64,000 nucleotides of DNA from Oceanospirillales bacterium (GTDB taxonomy: Bacteria; Pseudomonadota; Gammaproteobacteria; Pseudomonadales; Balneatricaceae), in the NCBI GenBank assembly GCA_018223185.1, contig JAAEYW010000003.1, positions 152,074 to 216,073 on the forward strand. The letters are read 5' to 3'. Numbering within the stretch: the first letter of the stretch is position 1; each line of letters opens with the position of its first letter. Of the stretch, positions 11,205-57,814 are shown piece after piece. The notes beneath the pieces are model-generated. The model saw nothing but the letters and a program-made list of their open reading frames with translations. It was not told where the DNA came from and searched no databases. The translations under genes were made by a program, and so were the position numbers.

Positions 11205-11279
11205 TGGCTGGGGTAGGAGGATTCGAACCTCCGCATGACGAGATCAAAACCCGTTGCCTTACCGCTTGGCGATACCCCA
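11205..11279 (-). tRNA. tRNA-Gln (anticodon TTG), copy 1
   Basis: Reads on the minus strand from 11279: acceptor TGGGGTA pairs with TACCCCA, anticodon loop TTTTGAT gives anticodon TTG, T-loop TTCGAAT, and GCCA ends the gene with CCA encoded. Sequence identical to the copies at 11483-11557 and 15382-15456. Confidence 0.97.
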
Positions 11280-11288
11280 GCAAAAGAA

Positions 11289-11365
11289 TGGTGGCAATAG
11301 CGGGACTCGAACCTGCGACCCTCGCATTATGAATGCGATGCTCTAACCAGCTGAGCTATATTGCC
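11289..11365 (-). tRNA. tRNA-Met (anticodon CAT), copy 1
   Basis: 77 bases with encoded CCA; acceptor GGCAATA/TATTGCC, anticodon stem TCGCA/TGCGA around loop TTCATAA. The Met-Gln arrangement mirrors the E. coli metT-glnVX operon, which favours elongator methionine over a lysidine-modified isoleucine tRNA, the other CAT possibility. Confidence 0.92.
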
Positions 11366-11482
11366 ATCTATATAACAGTGGGTTTAATAACCGTTATACA
11401 AATATGGTATGTAATAACAGGGACAGAATCCGGAGTATTACCTACCTTCTCTTAACGAACTATCAGATAGTAAGTCAGAAGA

Positions 11483-11557
11483 TGGCTGGGGTAGGAGGAT
11501 TCGAACCTCCGCATGACGAGATCAAAACCCGTTGCCTTACCGCTTGGCGATACCCCA
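11483..11557 (-). tRNA. tRNA-Gln (anticodon TTG), copy 2
   Basis: Identical to copy 1, including the spacer that follows it toward the next methionine tRNA. CCA encoded. Confidence 0.97.
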
Positions 11558-11566
11558 GCAAAAGAA

Positions 11567-11643
11567 TGGTGGCAATAGCGGGACTCGAACCTGCGACCCT
11601 CGCATTATGAATGCGATGCTCTAACCAGCTGAGCTATATTGCC
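11567..11643 (-). tRNA. tRNA-Met (anticodon CAT), copy 2
   Basis: Identical to the copy at 11289-11365. First gene of the leftward tRNA operon; a strong promoter lies about 16 bases upstream. Confidence 0.92.
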
Positions 11644-15381: not shown

Positions 15382-15456
15382 TGGCTGGGGTAGGAGGATT
15401 CGAACCTCCGCATGACGAGATCAAAACCCGTTGCCTTACCGCTTGGCGATACCCCA
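15382..15456 (-). tRNA. tRNA-Gln (anticodon TTG), copy 3
   Basis: Identical in sequence to the two copies near 11.2-11.6 kb, CCA encoded. A glutamine tRNA upstream of prs is conserved in Pseudomonas and relatives, where ispE normally precedes it; here lolB is next. Confidence 0.97.
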
Positions 15457-53565: not shown

Positions 53566-55797
53566 TTACATCAACGAAACAGCATCATTGCCTTCCTGTC
53601 GTACACTGCCGATAGCACAGGCCGTTGTATAGCCTGCGGCCTGTAATTCGGCAATCACTGAGTCTGCCTGATCTGAACTGACCGCCGCGAGCAATCCGCC
53701 TGCGGTTTGTGGGTCAAACAGCAGCTCGGTGGCGATATCATGACTGAACTCATCCAGATTATTAATGGTATGTTCAAACTTCCGGTTCTGAGGGTGCAGG
53801 GAACTGAAAAGCCCAGCCCGGAGGCACGGCAGTGCGCCCTCCATAGCGGGTAGTTTTTCCAGCCACAGACGCGCCCCAAGACCCGAACCATTGAGCATCT
53901 CATGCAGGTGTCCCAGAAGGCCAAAACCCGTGATATCGGTACAGGCATGAGCCCCCGCTGCGGTGAAAATCCTGCTGGCCTGGTAATTCGATTGCAGCAT
54001 ATGTTGCAGTGCCTGACTTATCCAGCGCCCCTGAGCCTGGCTGCGCATATCGCTGGCAAACAGTGTGCCAGTGCCCAGTGGTTTGGTGATAATTAACCGG
54101 TCTCCGGATTGCAGCCCTTGTTTGGTCAGGAGCTGCTGACGGTCGGCCAGACCATTGATGGTGAAGCCCAGTGTCAGTTCGGAGCCTTCTGATGTGTGTC
54201 CGCCGATCAGACCGATACCACATTCAGTAAATACCTTGCTGGCCCCGAGAAGCAGATGACGGAGTCGCTGCTCGATAATCTCATCGCTGGCATGGGGAAG
54301 GCTGACAATTGCCTGAGCACTGTGGGGTGTTGCGCCCATGGCGAAAATATCTCCCAGGGCATGGTTTGCTGCAATCTGGCCAAACAGAAAATCATCGCTG
54401 ACCAACTGACGGAAGCTGTCGACCGACTGGACCAGTAGTTTTCCCTGAGGAATAGCGATGACTGCGGCATCGTCGGGACGGTTAAGACCGATCTCAATCT
54501 CGTTGGGCGGGGCAGGCAACTGTTTCAGTACCCGGTTGAGAATACTGTGGCCTACTTTAGCGCCGCAACCACCGCAGCGCATATCCGGGTTCTCAATTTT
54601 CAGCGCCGCACCGGGCACCTGATCGGGCAGCTGGGTGAGATCGCTGAAACGTTGCATGAATTTCTGATCAATACGGTCTTTCCAGCGCCAGACCCAGTCA
54701 CCGGCAAAACTGAACGGGCCGCGGGAGGCAACCGCATAGCGATCCCCGGTGCTGATAAGGCTGAGAAACTGTTTTTGCGGTCTGAAACGGGTAAGTGGCT
54801 GCCCCGCGAGCGCTGCCTGCAGATTGCGCAATAGCGGCGCTCCCTGACGCACTGCAAATACACCGGCTTTGGGACGCGGATAATTAACCATATCGGCGAT
54901 ATCGCCGCAGGCAAAGATCTCCGGATGAGACAACGATTGCAGATAATCATTGACCCGGATACATCCGTTTTCCGAGCATTCAAGTCCGGCACGGGCTGGC
55001 CATTGGGCGCCTGTGGCAGACGTCGCCCAGATAATCTCATCCAGTTCGATAACGCCTCCAGACTCATTGATCACCCGTCCCTGTTTGACCTGAGCGACCC
55101 GGAAGTTGGTATGCAGTTCAATATTGCGTTGTTTCAGTACCTTCAGGTAACGATTTTTTACCCGATTGTTATGGCCAGTCAGAATCTGTTGTGGCCCGCA
55201 CATAATATGAAAGTGCAGATGGCTGGTGCGACGCTGCTCTTTGCTGAGCATTTTGTGCAGTTTGTACTGCATCGCCAGCATGACTTCGACAGCACTGGCT
55301 CCTCCGCCAACCGTGCCGATGTGAATATCCTGAAGATCATCACACTGCATAATGCGATTCTGCAAGGATTCCCAGTAATCCAGCAATGGTTTAACCGGCT
55401 TAACACCGGTGGTGAATTCTGCTGCACCGGGAATGGTTGTCAGGTCGGGTGTTGACCCTGTGTCGATACTCAACAGGTCGTAACTGAAATCCGGATGGTT
55501 GAGACACTGTACGGTTCGGCTGACCGGATCGATACCAATCACAGAGTCTTCAATAAAATCGATGCCGGCATAACGACAGAAACGGCCCAGATCGATATGC
55601 ACCTGATCGAAACTGTAATGGCCGGCAATCAGTCCAGGCAGCATGCCAGAATAGGGCGTCTGCACCATATTCGAGATCAGCGTAACGCGAACCCCTGCGG
55701 GTTTGTTCATCGCCATCATCAGCAGAGCGATAGCGTGAGCGTGCCCACCTCCGATAAAGATCAGGTGTTTACTTGCGGGGATGGGATCCTGTTGCAT
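53566..55797 (-). CDS. selD: FAD-dependent oxidoreductase fused to selenide, water dikinase SelD
   Basis: A 743-residue fusion. Residues 1-380 are a NADH-dehydrogenase-like pyridine nucleotide-disulfide oxidoreductase: FIGGGHAHAIALLMMA for FAD, a second GTVGGGASAVEVMLAM near 165 for NAD(P)H, and IFACGDIADM near 300. Residues 400-743 are SelD, which makes selenophosphate from selenide and ATP: CGGCGAKV with C411 at the catalytic Cys17 position of E. coli SelD, NRPDDAAVI, and GGHTSEGSELTLGF. This fusion is known from cyanobacteria and several gammaproteobacteria, where the flavoprotein may supply reduced selenium. An unusual structured RNA lies upstream. Confidence 0.93.
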   Translation of the reverse strand: MQQDPIPASKHLIFIGGGHAHAIALLMMAMNKPAGVRVTLISNMVQTPYSGMLPGLIAGHYSFDQVHIDLGRFCRYAGIDFIEDSVIGIDPVSRTVQCLNHPDFSYDLLSIDTGSTPDLTTIPGAAEFTTGVKPVKPLLDYWESLQNRIMQCDDLQDIHIGTVGGGASAVEVMLAMQYKLHKMLSKEQRRTSHLHFHIMCGPQQILTGHNNRVKNRYLKVLKQRNIELHTNFRVAQVKQGRVINESGGVIELDEIIWATSATGAQWPARAGLECSENGCIRVNDYLQSLSHPEIFACGDIADMVNYPRPKAGVFAVRQGAPLLRNLQAALAGQPLTRFRPQKQFLSLISTGDRYAVASRGPFSFAGDWVWRWKDRIDQKFMQRFSDLTQLPDQVPGAALKIENPDMRCGGCGAKVGHSILNRVLKQLPAPPNEIEIGLNRPDDAAVIAIPQGKLLVQSVDSFRQLVSDDFLFGQIAANHALGDIFAMGATPHSAQAIVSLPHASDEIIEQRLRHLLLGASKVFTECGIGLIGGHTSEGSELTLGFTINGLADRQQLLTKQGLQSGDRLIITKPLGTGTLFASDMRSQAQGRWISQALQHMLQSNYQASRIFTAAGAHACTDITGFGLLGHLHEMLNGSGLGARLWLEKLPAMEGALPCLRAGLFSSLHPQNRKFEHTINNLDEFSHDIATELLFDPQTAGGLLAAVSSDQADSVIAELQAAGYTTACAIGSVRQEGNDAVSLM

Positions 55798-55857: not shown

Positions 55858-55885
55858 AAAAAAATACCGGGTGGTTAAACCCGGT
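55858..55885 (-). terminator. Intrinsic terminator of the structured RNA
   Basis: On the minus strand ACCGGG, loop TTTAACCA, CCCGGT, A, then seven T residues. It lies 60 bases before the selD start codon. Confidence 0.85.
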
Positions 55886-56078
55886 CAATATTAACAAGAG
55901 CCTGATAGTACCAGCAAGCATCCGGGTGATAGCTGAAAAGTCAGCTTACACCTTAAAAACCGGAGCTTAACTGTATATCACAACCCGTAAGCAGGGTGGG
56001 GAGAACTGGCCAAATCAGTTCCCCCACCGTCGGCAGATTACCGGTGAGGTGAGAGCAATCTGCCAGTGCTTACGAGTC
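55858..56078 (-). ncRNA. Candidate Fur-regulated structured RNA, about 220 nt
   Basis: Predicted to start near 56078 and end at the terminator. Domain 1 is a three-way junction: P1 CGTAAGCA (56074-56067) with TGCTTACG (55993-55986); P2 GGCAGATT (56064-56057) with AATCTGCC (56039-56032); P3 GGTGGGGGAACTG (56028-56016) with 56008-55995, thirteen pairs and one bulge. Domain 2: AAGCTCCGG (55968-55960) pairs with CCGGATGCTT (55925-55916, one bulge) around a hairpin AGCTGA-CTTT-TCAGCT (55946-55931). A terminator follows. I recognise no known riboswitch or sRNA family. It is either a free small RNA or a leader that can terminate before selD. Confidence 0.6.
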
Positions 56079-56084
56079 GGATTG

Positions 56085-56113
56085 ATATTAATGCAAATGA
56101 GAATGACTATCAA
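56085..56113 (-). promoter_or_regulatory. Sigma-70 promoter overlapped by a Fur box
   Basis: Minus strand TTGATA (56113-56108), 17-base spacer, TAATAT (56090-56085). The spacer and -35 are covered by a 19-base site (56093-56111, plus strand GCAAATGAGAATGACTATC) that matches 14 of 19 positions of the classic Fur box. Iron-loaded Fur should block this promoter. Confidence 0.7.
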
Positions 56114-56332
56114 TAACTATTTTGTTAGTTTATTGCTTATAAACTGATCCGGCCCTGAATATTGCGGTTCTACAGGCGTTGAGTGGATTTATAAGTCACT
56201 ATGCAAAGGTTTTCCCATAGGATATCCACAGAAACAGGGGATAAAAGTGACCCTGATCACTTATTAACATTGAAGAATAACGGCGCTGCGACTTAACTGA
56301 GTGTAACGGTGTTACCCGAAATGGATCTGATA

Positions 56333-57814
56333 ATGGGACTTGAGATTAAGAAGTCTGAATTCGCCCGGCAAGACTACGAACGCTTTACCCGCAAGTTGTT
56401 CAGTAATCTGGATGAGCTTGCTCAGTTATTGCAACAGCCAGGCTTCGGATTAGGAGCCGCTACGCTGGGGGCCGAACTTGAACTCTATATTGTTGATAAG
56501 CTGGGCCGGCCGCTATTGGTGAACAATAAGATACAGGCGCAGCTGGGGGACCCACAGCTGACGCTGGAGCTGAACCGCTATAATCTGGAATATAACCTGA
56601 CCCCTGTCGCGATGGAGGGCCGGCCTTTTTCAGCCATAGAGACTGAGATTCGCACGGTATTGGAACGACTCAATGCTCTGGCTGAGCCTTATGGCGGCCG
56701 GATATTGCCCATTGGTATCCTGCCGACATTGCAGCGTAAAGATTTTGGTTTACACGCGATGACTGATCTGTCCCGTTATCATGCACTCACCCGGGCGCTG
56801 GCTGAGATCCGGGGTGAGACTGTTGCAATCAGGATTGATGGCGAAGATCCGATCTCCCTGCGTGCCTCTGATGTCACTCTGGAGGGCGCTAATACTTCAC
56901 TGCAGATGCACTATCGTGTCACTCCTCAACAATTTGCTGACAGTTATAACGCGATTCAGCTGGTGACCCCTCTGGTGTTGGCGATATCGGCAAACTCTCC
57001 GTTTCTGATGGGCAACCGGTTGTGGCATGAGACCCGTGTACCGCTGTTCAGGCAGGCGATTGATGGCAGCGGTAATGGTTCGGTGAAAACCGGAGAAGCG
57101 GAACGAGTGAGCTTTGGCCATGGCTGGGTCAGGCATGGAGTGCATGAGCTGTTTGCCGAAACGGTATACCTGCATAAACCTATCCTGCCGGTGTGTGAAA
57201 AAAAACATGGCAGGGCTGGTAAAGCAGGGGACAATATCTCTCTGTTCGAACTGACATTGCATCAGGGTACCGTATGGCCCTGGAATCGTCCGGTATATGA
57301 TCCGGTCGATGGTGGTCATCTGCGTATTGAGATCCGGTCATTACCGGCGGGACCGAGTCCCTGCGATATGATGGCAAATGCAGCACTGATTATCGGACTG
57401 GCTGAAGGGCTGCGTTCACGTATTGAGGAGATCATTCCGGCGTTGCCTTTTAAGACTCTGGAATATAATTTCTATCAGGCTGCCCGGTTTGGTATGGGGG
57501 CAAAACTGATGTGGCCAAGTGGCCCCCGTGAGCAGTTAACCCGGCTTCCGGTTGTGGATATCGTGTCTGCTCTGTTGCCGGTTGCACGTAAAGGCTTACT
57601 GGGTGCGGGAATCCGTCCGGCGGAGGTGGATCACTATCTGGGGATTATTAGTCAGCGTCTGCAGGCGAGAACCAATGGTGCCTGCTGGCAATTGCGTCAG
57701 TTTGAACGCTTATCCCGTTCGCAGACCAGGCGACGGGCGTTGCGCTGTATGCTGGAACATTATATCGGTCACTGTGGCAATAATCGTCCAGTGGCCGAAT
57801 GGGAGGATATCTGA
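56333..57814 (+). CDS. GCS2-family glutamate-cysteine ligase-like carboxylate-amine ligase
   Basis: ATP-dependent ligase of the GCS2 superfamily, which joins an amine to the gamma-carboxylate of glutamate. 493 residues from ATG 56333 (MGLEIKKSEF), chosen for GGAT upstream and family-like start; ATG 56321 and GTG 56309 are alternatives. Core motifs: GAELELYIVD near 44, ELNRYNLEYNLTP near 82, LQMHYRV near 190 and HLRIEIRSLPAGPSP near 330, which carry the ATP and metal contacts. It is not the E. coli-type GshA. Overlaps the next gene by one base, so ligation and hydrolysis of the same bond may be paired. Confidence 0.82.
   Translation: MGLEIKKSEFARQDYERFTRKLFSNLDELAQLLQQPGFGLGAATLGAELELYIVDKLGRPLLVNNKIQAQLGDPQLTLELNRYNLEYNLTPVAMEGRPFSAIETEIRTVLERLNALAEPYGGRILPIGILPTLQRKDFGLHAMTDLSRYHALTRALAEIRGETVAIRIDGEDPISLRASDVTLEGANTSLQMHYRVTPQQFADSYNAIQLVTPLVLAISANSPFLMGNRLWHETRVPLFRQAIDGSGNGSVKTGEAERVSFGHGWVRHGVHELFAETVYLHKPILPVCEKKHGRAGKAGDNISLFELTLHQGTVWPWNRPVYDPVDGGHLRIEIRSLPAGPSPCDMMANAALIIGLAEGLRSRIEEIIPALPFKTLEYNFYQAARFGMGAKLMWPSGPREQLTRLPVVDIVSALLPVARKGLLGAGIRPAEVDHYLGIISQRLQARTNGACWQLRQFERLSRSQTRRRALRCMLEHYIGHCGNNRPVAEWEDI

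Follow-up and report, generated by a model that had tools for sequence, protein, structure and literature searches.

The gap between an oxidoreductase-SelD fusion gene and a glutamate-cysteine-ligase-like gene raises the question of whether it encodes a regulatory RNA of its own or merely the leader of its neighbour. The two genes occupy positions 53566-55797 on the minus strand and 56309-57814 on the plus strand (Pfam GCS2) of the window, by which we mean the whole stretch of 64,000 nucleotides analyzed here. A sequence-only reading had noticed a promoter, a Fur box, a strongly folded RNA and a terminator in the gap and had offered two interpretations: a new iron-responsive sRNA, or a leader that links iron and selenium metabolism by terminating before selD. 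The former has held up, given covariation, the presence of the Fur-box/-10 region in copies at several loci and the lack of an Rfam match at gathering score, with the Fur box pointing to the iron response; the latter has not.

Here we propose that the element, which spans 56118-55858 on the minus strand and comprises a Fur box, a promoter-like site, a folded RNA and a terminator, is quite probably a gene for a Fur-repressed, iron-sparing sRNA that acts in trans. It would represent a new family with a PrrF/RyhB-like action. The fusion gene, whose product shares 80-90 % identity with the products of nine loci labelled Amphritea, lies downstream of the sRNA and is judged to be outside the system. 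This identity assigns the window to Amphritea or to a genus very close to it.

Promoter region and Fur box

The promoter-like sequence TTGATA-N17-TAATAT is present, as described, on the minus strand at 56113-56085 and matches at 9 of 12 positions. Taken alone this match means little, because three promoter-like sites of such quality are found in 2 kb against 2.7 expected by chance. The site lies within and after two overlapping Fur-box-like 19-mers (56093-56117, minus strand), which were scored by counting matches to a Fur-box consensus. The 14/19 match reported over the promoter was reproduced at 56093-56111 (13/19 on the other strand), and a better one, 15/19, was found at 56099-56117. Elsewhere in the 64 kb, matches of at least 14/19 occur at two places only, 7099, inside a reading frame, and 22714, between frames (14-15/19). 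The Fur-box/-10 region is conserved across 36 aligned copies of the element. The sequence places a Fur box over the promoter, the arrangement of a Fur-repressed iron-sparing sRNA, and this Fur box suggests that the sRNA responds to iron and is most likely turned on during iron shortage.

Fold, terminator and covariation

Reckoned from the -10, the predicted transcript has about 220 nt (56079-55858; all features in this section are on the minus strand). It folds into the three-way junction that had been described, at -98 kcal/mol compared with -61.67 (sd 4.45) for 200 dinucleotide shuffles, none of which was as good (z -8.16). P1 joins its 5′ arm at 56067-56074 to 55986-55993. The P2 hairpin (56032-56064) pairs 56057-56064 with 56032-56039 below the apical loop CUCACCUCACC (56043-56053), which is anti-Shine-Dalgarno-like and invariant in 25 copies. 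The P3 hairpin (55995-56028) pairs 56016-56028 with 55995-56008, carries one bulge and ends in the conserved tip GAUUUGGCC (56008-56016). This tip contains the palindrome UGGCCA, through which two RNAs could kiss. Further downstream, the putative seed GGCUCUUGUU (55902-55893) is unpaired in the minimum-energy fold and forms a two-pair helix in the centroid fold. The intrinsic terminator (55858-55885) agrees with its first description: a stem at 55885-55866, then A and seven T.

Covariation was assessed on an alignment, A1, of 25 copies judged intact, drawn from the genomes matched by a 271-base query (see below) and from one additional contig. The selD position accounts for 14 of them (one, in G013, on a contig that ends before selD), a row of four in G005 for 3 more, and a second locus, present in four genomes, for 8; the decayed G004 and G011 copies were excluded. 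Two blocks, CUCACCUCACCG and GAUUUGGCC, are invariant, each capping a helix with a variable stem. RNAalifold returned 17 pairs, 15 of them with changes on both sides. With P1 added by hand, 15 of 25 consensus pairs show changes in both partners (4 of the 7 modelled for P2, 11 of 12 for P3 and 0 of 6 for P1) and 89.3 % of cells pair. P2 and P3 are well supported, because the covariation score of 0.496 exceeds those of shuffled (0.200) and slid (at most 0.126) versions. P1, in which 81.3 % of cells pair, is conserved in sequence without covariation, and some copies, for example in G005, fold it differently. The check in relatives thus bore out two of the three helices. Its own terminator and the repeated conservation of a structured RNA are both features of an iron-sparing sRNA.

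Copies and their distribution

A 271-base query found matches in 16 of 57 genomes, all from the same genus and several per genome in some. Model R1 matched 17 of 116 genomes of the family, namely 13 of 17 Amphritea genomes together with G033, G068, G089 and G128. It counted five copies each in G001 and G002 and four each in G003, G005 and G012; some Amphritea genomes hold four to five copies at up to three loci. In a sample of the order, 6 of 390 genomes matched R1: three matches appear genuine (the window's genome, G090, G095), and those in G298, G337 and G475 were judged spurious by eye.

A second model, R2, uses sequence only and runs from the Fur box to P2. It matched 81 of the 116 family genomes and 167 of the 390 in the order sample, most of the weak matches being Fur boxes only. 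Where a weak match stops around model position 45-60 it is usually a Fur box, but this group also included the copies from genus g12. Since these g12 copies and a diverged copy in G018 turned up, our view that g3 genomes without a long R2 match lack the RNA was withdrawn, and "no recognised copy" means below only that there is no long R2 match and that nothing was seen at the places read.

Copies were read in six further genera: g12, and g3, g8, g9, g13 and g16, where they often stand in tandem. They have in common the Fur box with its -10 and a beginning similar to GCUCGUAAG; a hairpin, frequently with CCUCACCUCAC at its tip, is followed by a middle part that varies, then by GG(C/U)UCUU(G/A)UCAUU or a sequence near it, and by a terminator. 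The unpaired seed-type 3′ motif GGCUCUUGU recurs, with some variation, across seven genera; no genus but Amphritea showed the P3 loop GAUUUGGCC. The flanking frames at 14 loci vary from genus to genus.

Two loci show individual peculiarities. In g16 (L141:5653-5950, L142) a second Fur-box gene follows the first, with the hairpin loop UCCCCUCAC and an GGCUCUUGUCAUU seed that is absent from the first copy. In G128 (L138:5913-6200) the first copy in a set of three continues into roughly 14 GCTTACC repeats, with neither seed nor terminator nearby, and may be decaying.

Search for a known family

The RNA had at first been matched to no known family, and Rfam concurs. At gathering score, a scan of the whole window reported five tRNAs and nothing at the sRNA locus, neither RyhB nor any other Rfam sRNA. 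The tRNAs include a tRNA-Met/tRNA-Gln pair duplicated in tandem at 11205-11643 and a third tRNA-Gln 4 kb away (15382-15456). Relaxed scans of the relatives' copies gave sub-threshold matches only; at the window's sRNA locus the best match was ncS16 of Burkholderia, whose model has CUCUUGUC before the terminator and which scored 19 bits here and 30.1 on a copy from g13, its cut-off being 48. A known Rfam family was therefore rejected as the identity of the RNA. Within the open-access literature searched, we found no paper on an Amphritea small RNA, on a Fur-regulated three-way-junction sRNA or on PrrF in Oceanospirillales, and the titles and opening abstract lines of related papers mentioned no RNA of this kind. 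A search of a plasmid collection returned only chance pieces of 26-37 bases.

The sdhC start region as a putative target

According to PMC7377471, sdhC is a confirmed target of RyhB and PrrF. It was the second gene to be deliberately examined, after sodB, which was set aside as a target: by eye, no site was seen in the inspected regions of 17 genomes, the G004 stretch of which missed the start.

The start codon of sdhC (Pfam Sdh_cyt) is GUG in each of the 17 Amphritea genomes, and in 16 of them GUGUGAACAAGAGCC precedes it; the window's own genome reads AACAAUAGCC. Directly before the start, 16 of the 17 carry AACAAGAGCC, the perfect complement of the window seed GGCUCUUGUU. Seed and sdhC can form 9-13 contiguous pairs in most relatives, with one mismatch in the window's own genome. 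For comparison across genera, sdhC was taken from 54 further genomes. AAGAGCC stands directly before GUG in 7/7 genomes of g16, 5/5 of g8, 6/7 of g13, 3/4 of g9, 1/5 of g3 and 0/2 of g12. It is absent from 15/15 genomes in nine family genera with no recognised copy, 8 of which read ACUAGAGCC, and present in 2 of 9 genomes with PrrF matches elsewhere in the order.

When 3′ segments were paired with the sdhC start of their own genome, 48 of 49 rows fell between -19.2 and -27.5 kcal/mol, and in these rows no more than 6 of 200 shuffled sites did as well. The window's own duplex reached -15.1 kcal/mol, with 21 of 200 shuffled sites as good. The 49 rows stand for 48 copies, one G128 copy being scored twice; the decayed G004 and G011 copies and A. 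pacifica, for which there was no sdhC sequence, were left out, and a false second motif in G033 was removed before the counts. Scoring did not extend to five copies that have no GG(C/U)UCU-type seed: the first ones of G128, G089, G090 and G095, and G005_d, where AGCUCUUGU takes its place. The longest run of unbroken pairs measures 13 in g8 (0/20000 shuffles), 11 in g9 (6/20000), 10 for the window seed on a relative's sdhC (28/20000) and 9 in g16 (64/20000), figures to be read with shuffles that preserve base composition only and lineages that are related, not independent.

Energies across genera were computed without G070, which has another sdhC paralogue and is counted among the four of g9 above. 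Segments from g1 reach about -20 to -23 with sdhC of copy-carrying genera compared with about -16 to -17 where copies are lacking. The g13 segment finds better partners in sdhC of g8 and g16 than in that of g13 itself, the segment from g12 reaches a weak -18.4 with the sdhC of g12, and the one from G018 is strong almost everywhere; these duplexes count against a neat co-adaptation of seed and sdhC. The surroundings of the sdhC start are conserved across the family with or without the RNA, and four Amphritea genomes without an R1 match still keep the site. On the strength of the complementarity, the sRNA probably spares iron by lowering succinate dehydrogenase.

The P2 loop and further candidate targets

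The P2 loop contains UCACCUC, a sequence also present at the 3′ end of 16S rRNA, so that it can pair with ribosome sites containing GAGGUGA. In 17 genomes the pattern GTGAGGTGA-N(3-11)-ATG gave 90 matches compared with 31 for a reversed control, an excess that could stem from ordinary ribosome sites. Most, though not all, of the matches were fetched, and 28 had reading frames of at least 100 aa. Among these frames are leuC in four genomes (G014, G010, G006 and G016; the G014 protein scores over the NCBIfam leuC cut-off), a cytochrome c in G000 and G011 (Pfam, G000 protein), an oxidoreductase in five genomes, AcuI by eye, and others with no evident iron link, some of them recurring. The leuC product is an iron-sulphur enzyme, and leuC is suggestive only, a weak candidate for a second target.

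Alternative explanations

The least probable of the alternatives, to which we give almost no credence, is a cis-acting leader or attenuator of selD that couples iron to selenium. In its favour, the sRNA terminates about 60 bases upstream of selD in the window and 14 of the 25 aligned copies are in the selD position (including that of G013, where the contig stops short of the gene). However, copies are present at other loci with other neighbours and a Fur box of their own, and three genomes that have kept selD hold a decayed copy there (G004, G011) or none (L031). Where the copy is decayed or gone, TTAT(C/T)T...TA(A/C)TAT between the terminator and the selD start is still conserved, and this region may serve selD itself as a promoter. 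The leader was rejected because of the number of copies, their neighbours and their decay next to selD. The decayed copies of G004 and G011 (L015, L016) keep the CTCACCTCA loop letters, and sdhC in these two genomes keeps the perfect site. A simple inverted repeat or mobile element was ruled out, since the loops stay fixed where their stems covary and the Fur box accompanies the copies. It is also very unlikely that the RNA is a decoy whose two invariant loops bind an RNA-binding protein instead of messages. Such a role would suit loops that stay invariant while their stems vary, and GAUUUGGCC has no proposed message target, but no element is kept more widely than the unpaired 3′ motif, which has a matching site at sdhC, and the GGA-type repeats that Csr/Rsm decoys carry are absent, by eye.

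A closer relative may be sought in PrrF of Pseudomonas (RF00444, gathering cut-off 90 bits), which like the new sRNA has a Fur-type promoter, tandem copies, a 3′ seed before the terminator and complementarity to the sdhC start region, the last being less strong in the genome of the window. The best partner of PrrF segments is the sdhC of PrrF genomes, with 11 perfect pairs over the same start codon; PrrF and the new sRNA therefore complement one and the same site, the seed of one being offset from that of the other. In contrast to PrrF, the new sRNA uses another seed register and adds a structured 5′ domain with CUCACCUCAC and GAUUUGGCC loops. Both could descend from one ancient, order-wide lineage whose seed slid along the sdhC start, so that the new sRNA would be a far-diverged PrrF belonging in an enlarged PrrF family. 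Besides the shared promoter type, frequent tandem copies and common sdhC place, the g12 and g13 seeds CACGGUUCUUGUCAUU resemble PrrF AAUCACGGUU, and g6 and g15, which hold the only family matches to RF00444 above 35 bits (G021 and G030), are not among the genera where the new sRNA was read. We nevertheless regard this descent as rather unlikely. RF00444 matches 55 of 293 genomes in the order at E 0.05, 12 of them over the cut-off, but in the family 28 of 114 at E 1 and none over it, and among the matches listed for those 114 genomes none falls at a locus of the new sRNA. The model has no match in the window, scores one g13 copy at 17.6 bits (E 1.3) and is absent from the matches listed for g12. 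The core read in PrrF loci, UCUCCUCAUCA(A/G)GCUAAUCACGG, is absent from the window sequence, and a shared target can make unrelated seeds alike. We speak of a new family because the PrrF model fails. In g3 (L344-L347, L231) a separate conserved stretch ends in A(U/C)(U/C)ACGGCUUUUAUCCGGG and a terminator with no evident Fur box, and carries a PrrF-like seed complementary to the sdhC start.

Among other iron-linked sRNAs, RyhB of Escherichia coli is Fur-repressed and lowers iron-using enzymes, as is proposed here, but differs in that the new sRNA has no Rfam match at gathering score and no sodB site was seen. The new sRNA is rated a variant of the PrrF/RyhB kind because it would work like both, fails their models and adds a loop-presenting domain. 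According to PMC7377471, BrrF of Burkholderia is a low-iron sRNA with a predicted sdhC target; unlike the new sRNA it has no Fur box directly upstream, and it adjoins hemP. IsrR of Staphylococcus aureus is, according to PMC11257911, an sRNA under iron regulation whose C-rich regions are able to pair with ribosome sites. It resembles what we propose for the P2 loop, but comes from a distant organism and was compared through the Rfam scan only.

Proposed mode of action and significance

In the iron-sparing reading that we prefer, Fur would occupy the sRNA promoter while iron is present. Once iron is absent, the sRNA would be transcribed and stop at its own terminator. Its unpaired GG(C/U)UCUU(G/A)U, which is complementary to the sdhC ribosome site and GUG, would pair there and block translation of the iron-rich succinate dehydrogenase. 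The 5′ part would present the anti-Shine-Dalgarno-like loop, probably pairing with the ribosome sites of other messages, with leuC as a weak candidate. Several copies may increase the dose or split the tasks.

A more elaborate version, possible but doubtful, makes this a two-module RNA of one ancient lineage with PrrF. Its 5′ platform would be an anti-Shine-Dalgarno decoy silencing GAGGUGA messages (leuC, cytochrome c), and its linear 3′ seed, sliding along a fixed target, would silence sdhC. In some genera the modules would be split between tandem copies, as in g16, where the first copy has the CCUCACCUCAC loop and no seed and the second has the seed.

Amphritea and related marine bacteria would gain an iron-sparing sRNA that is absent from Rfam. 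Its strong covariation and its copy number, as many as five in one genome, make the family ready for inclusion in RNA libraries. Because the same sdhC site has complementarity with PrrF in Pseudomonas and with the new RNA in Amphritea, it would offer a natural series for following joint change of seed and target, and for asking whether iron-sparing sRNAs arise anew or share one descent.
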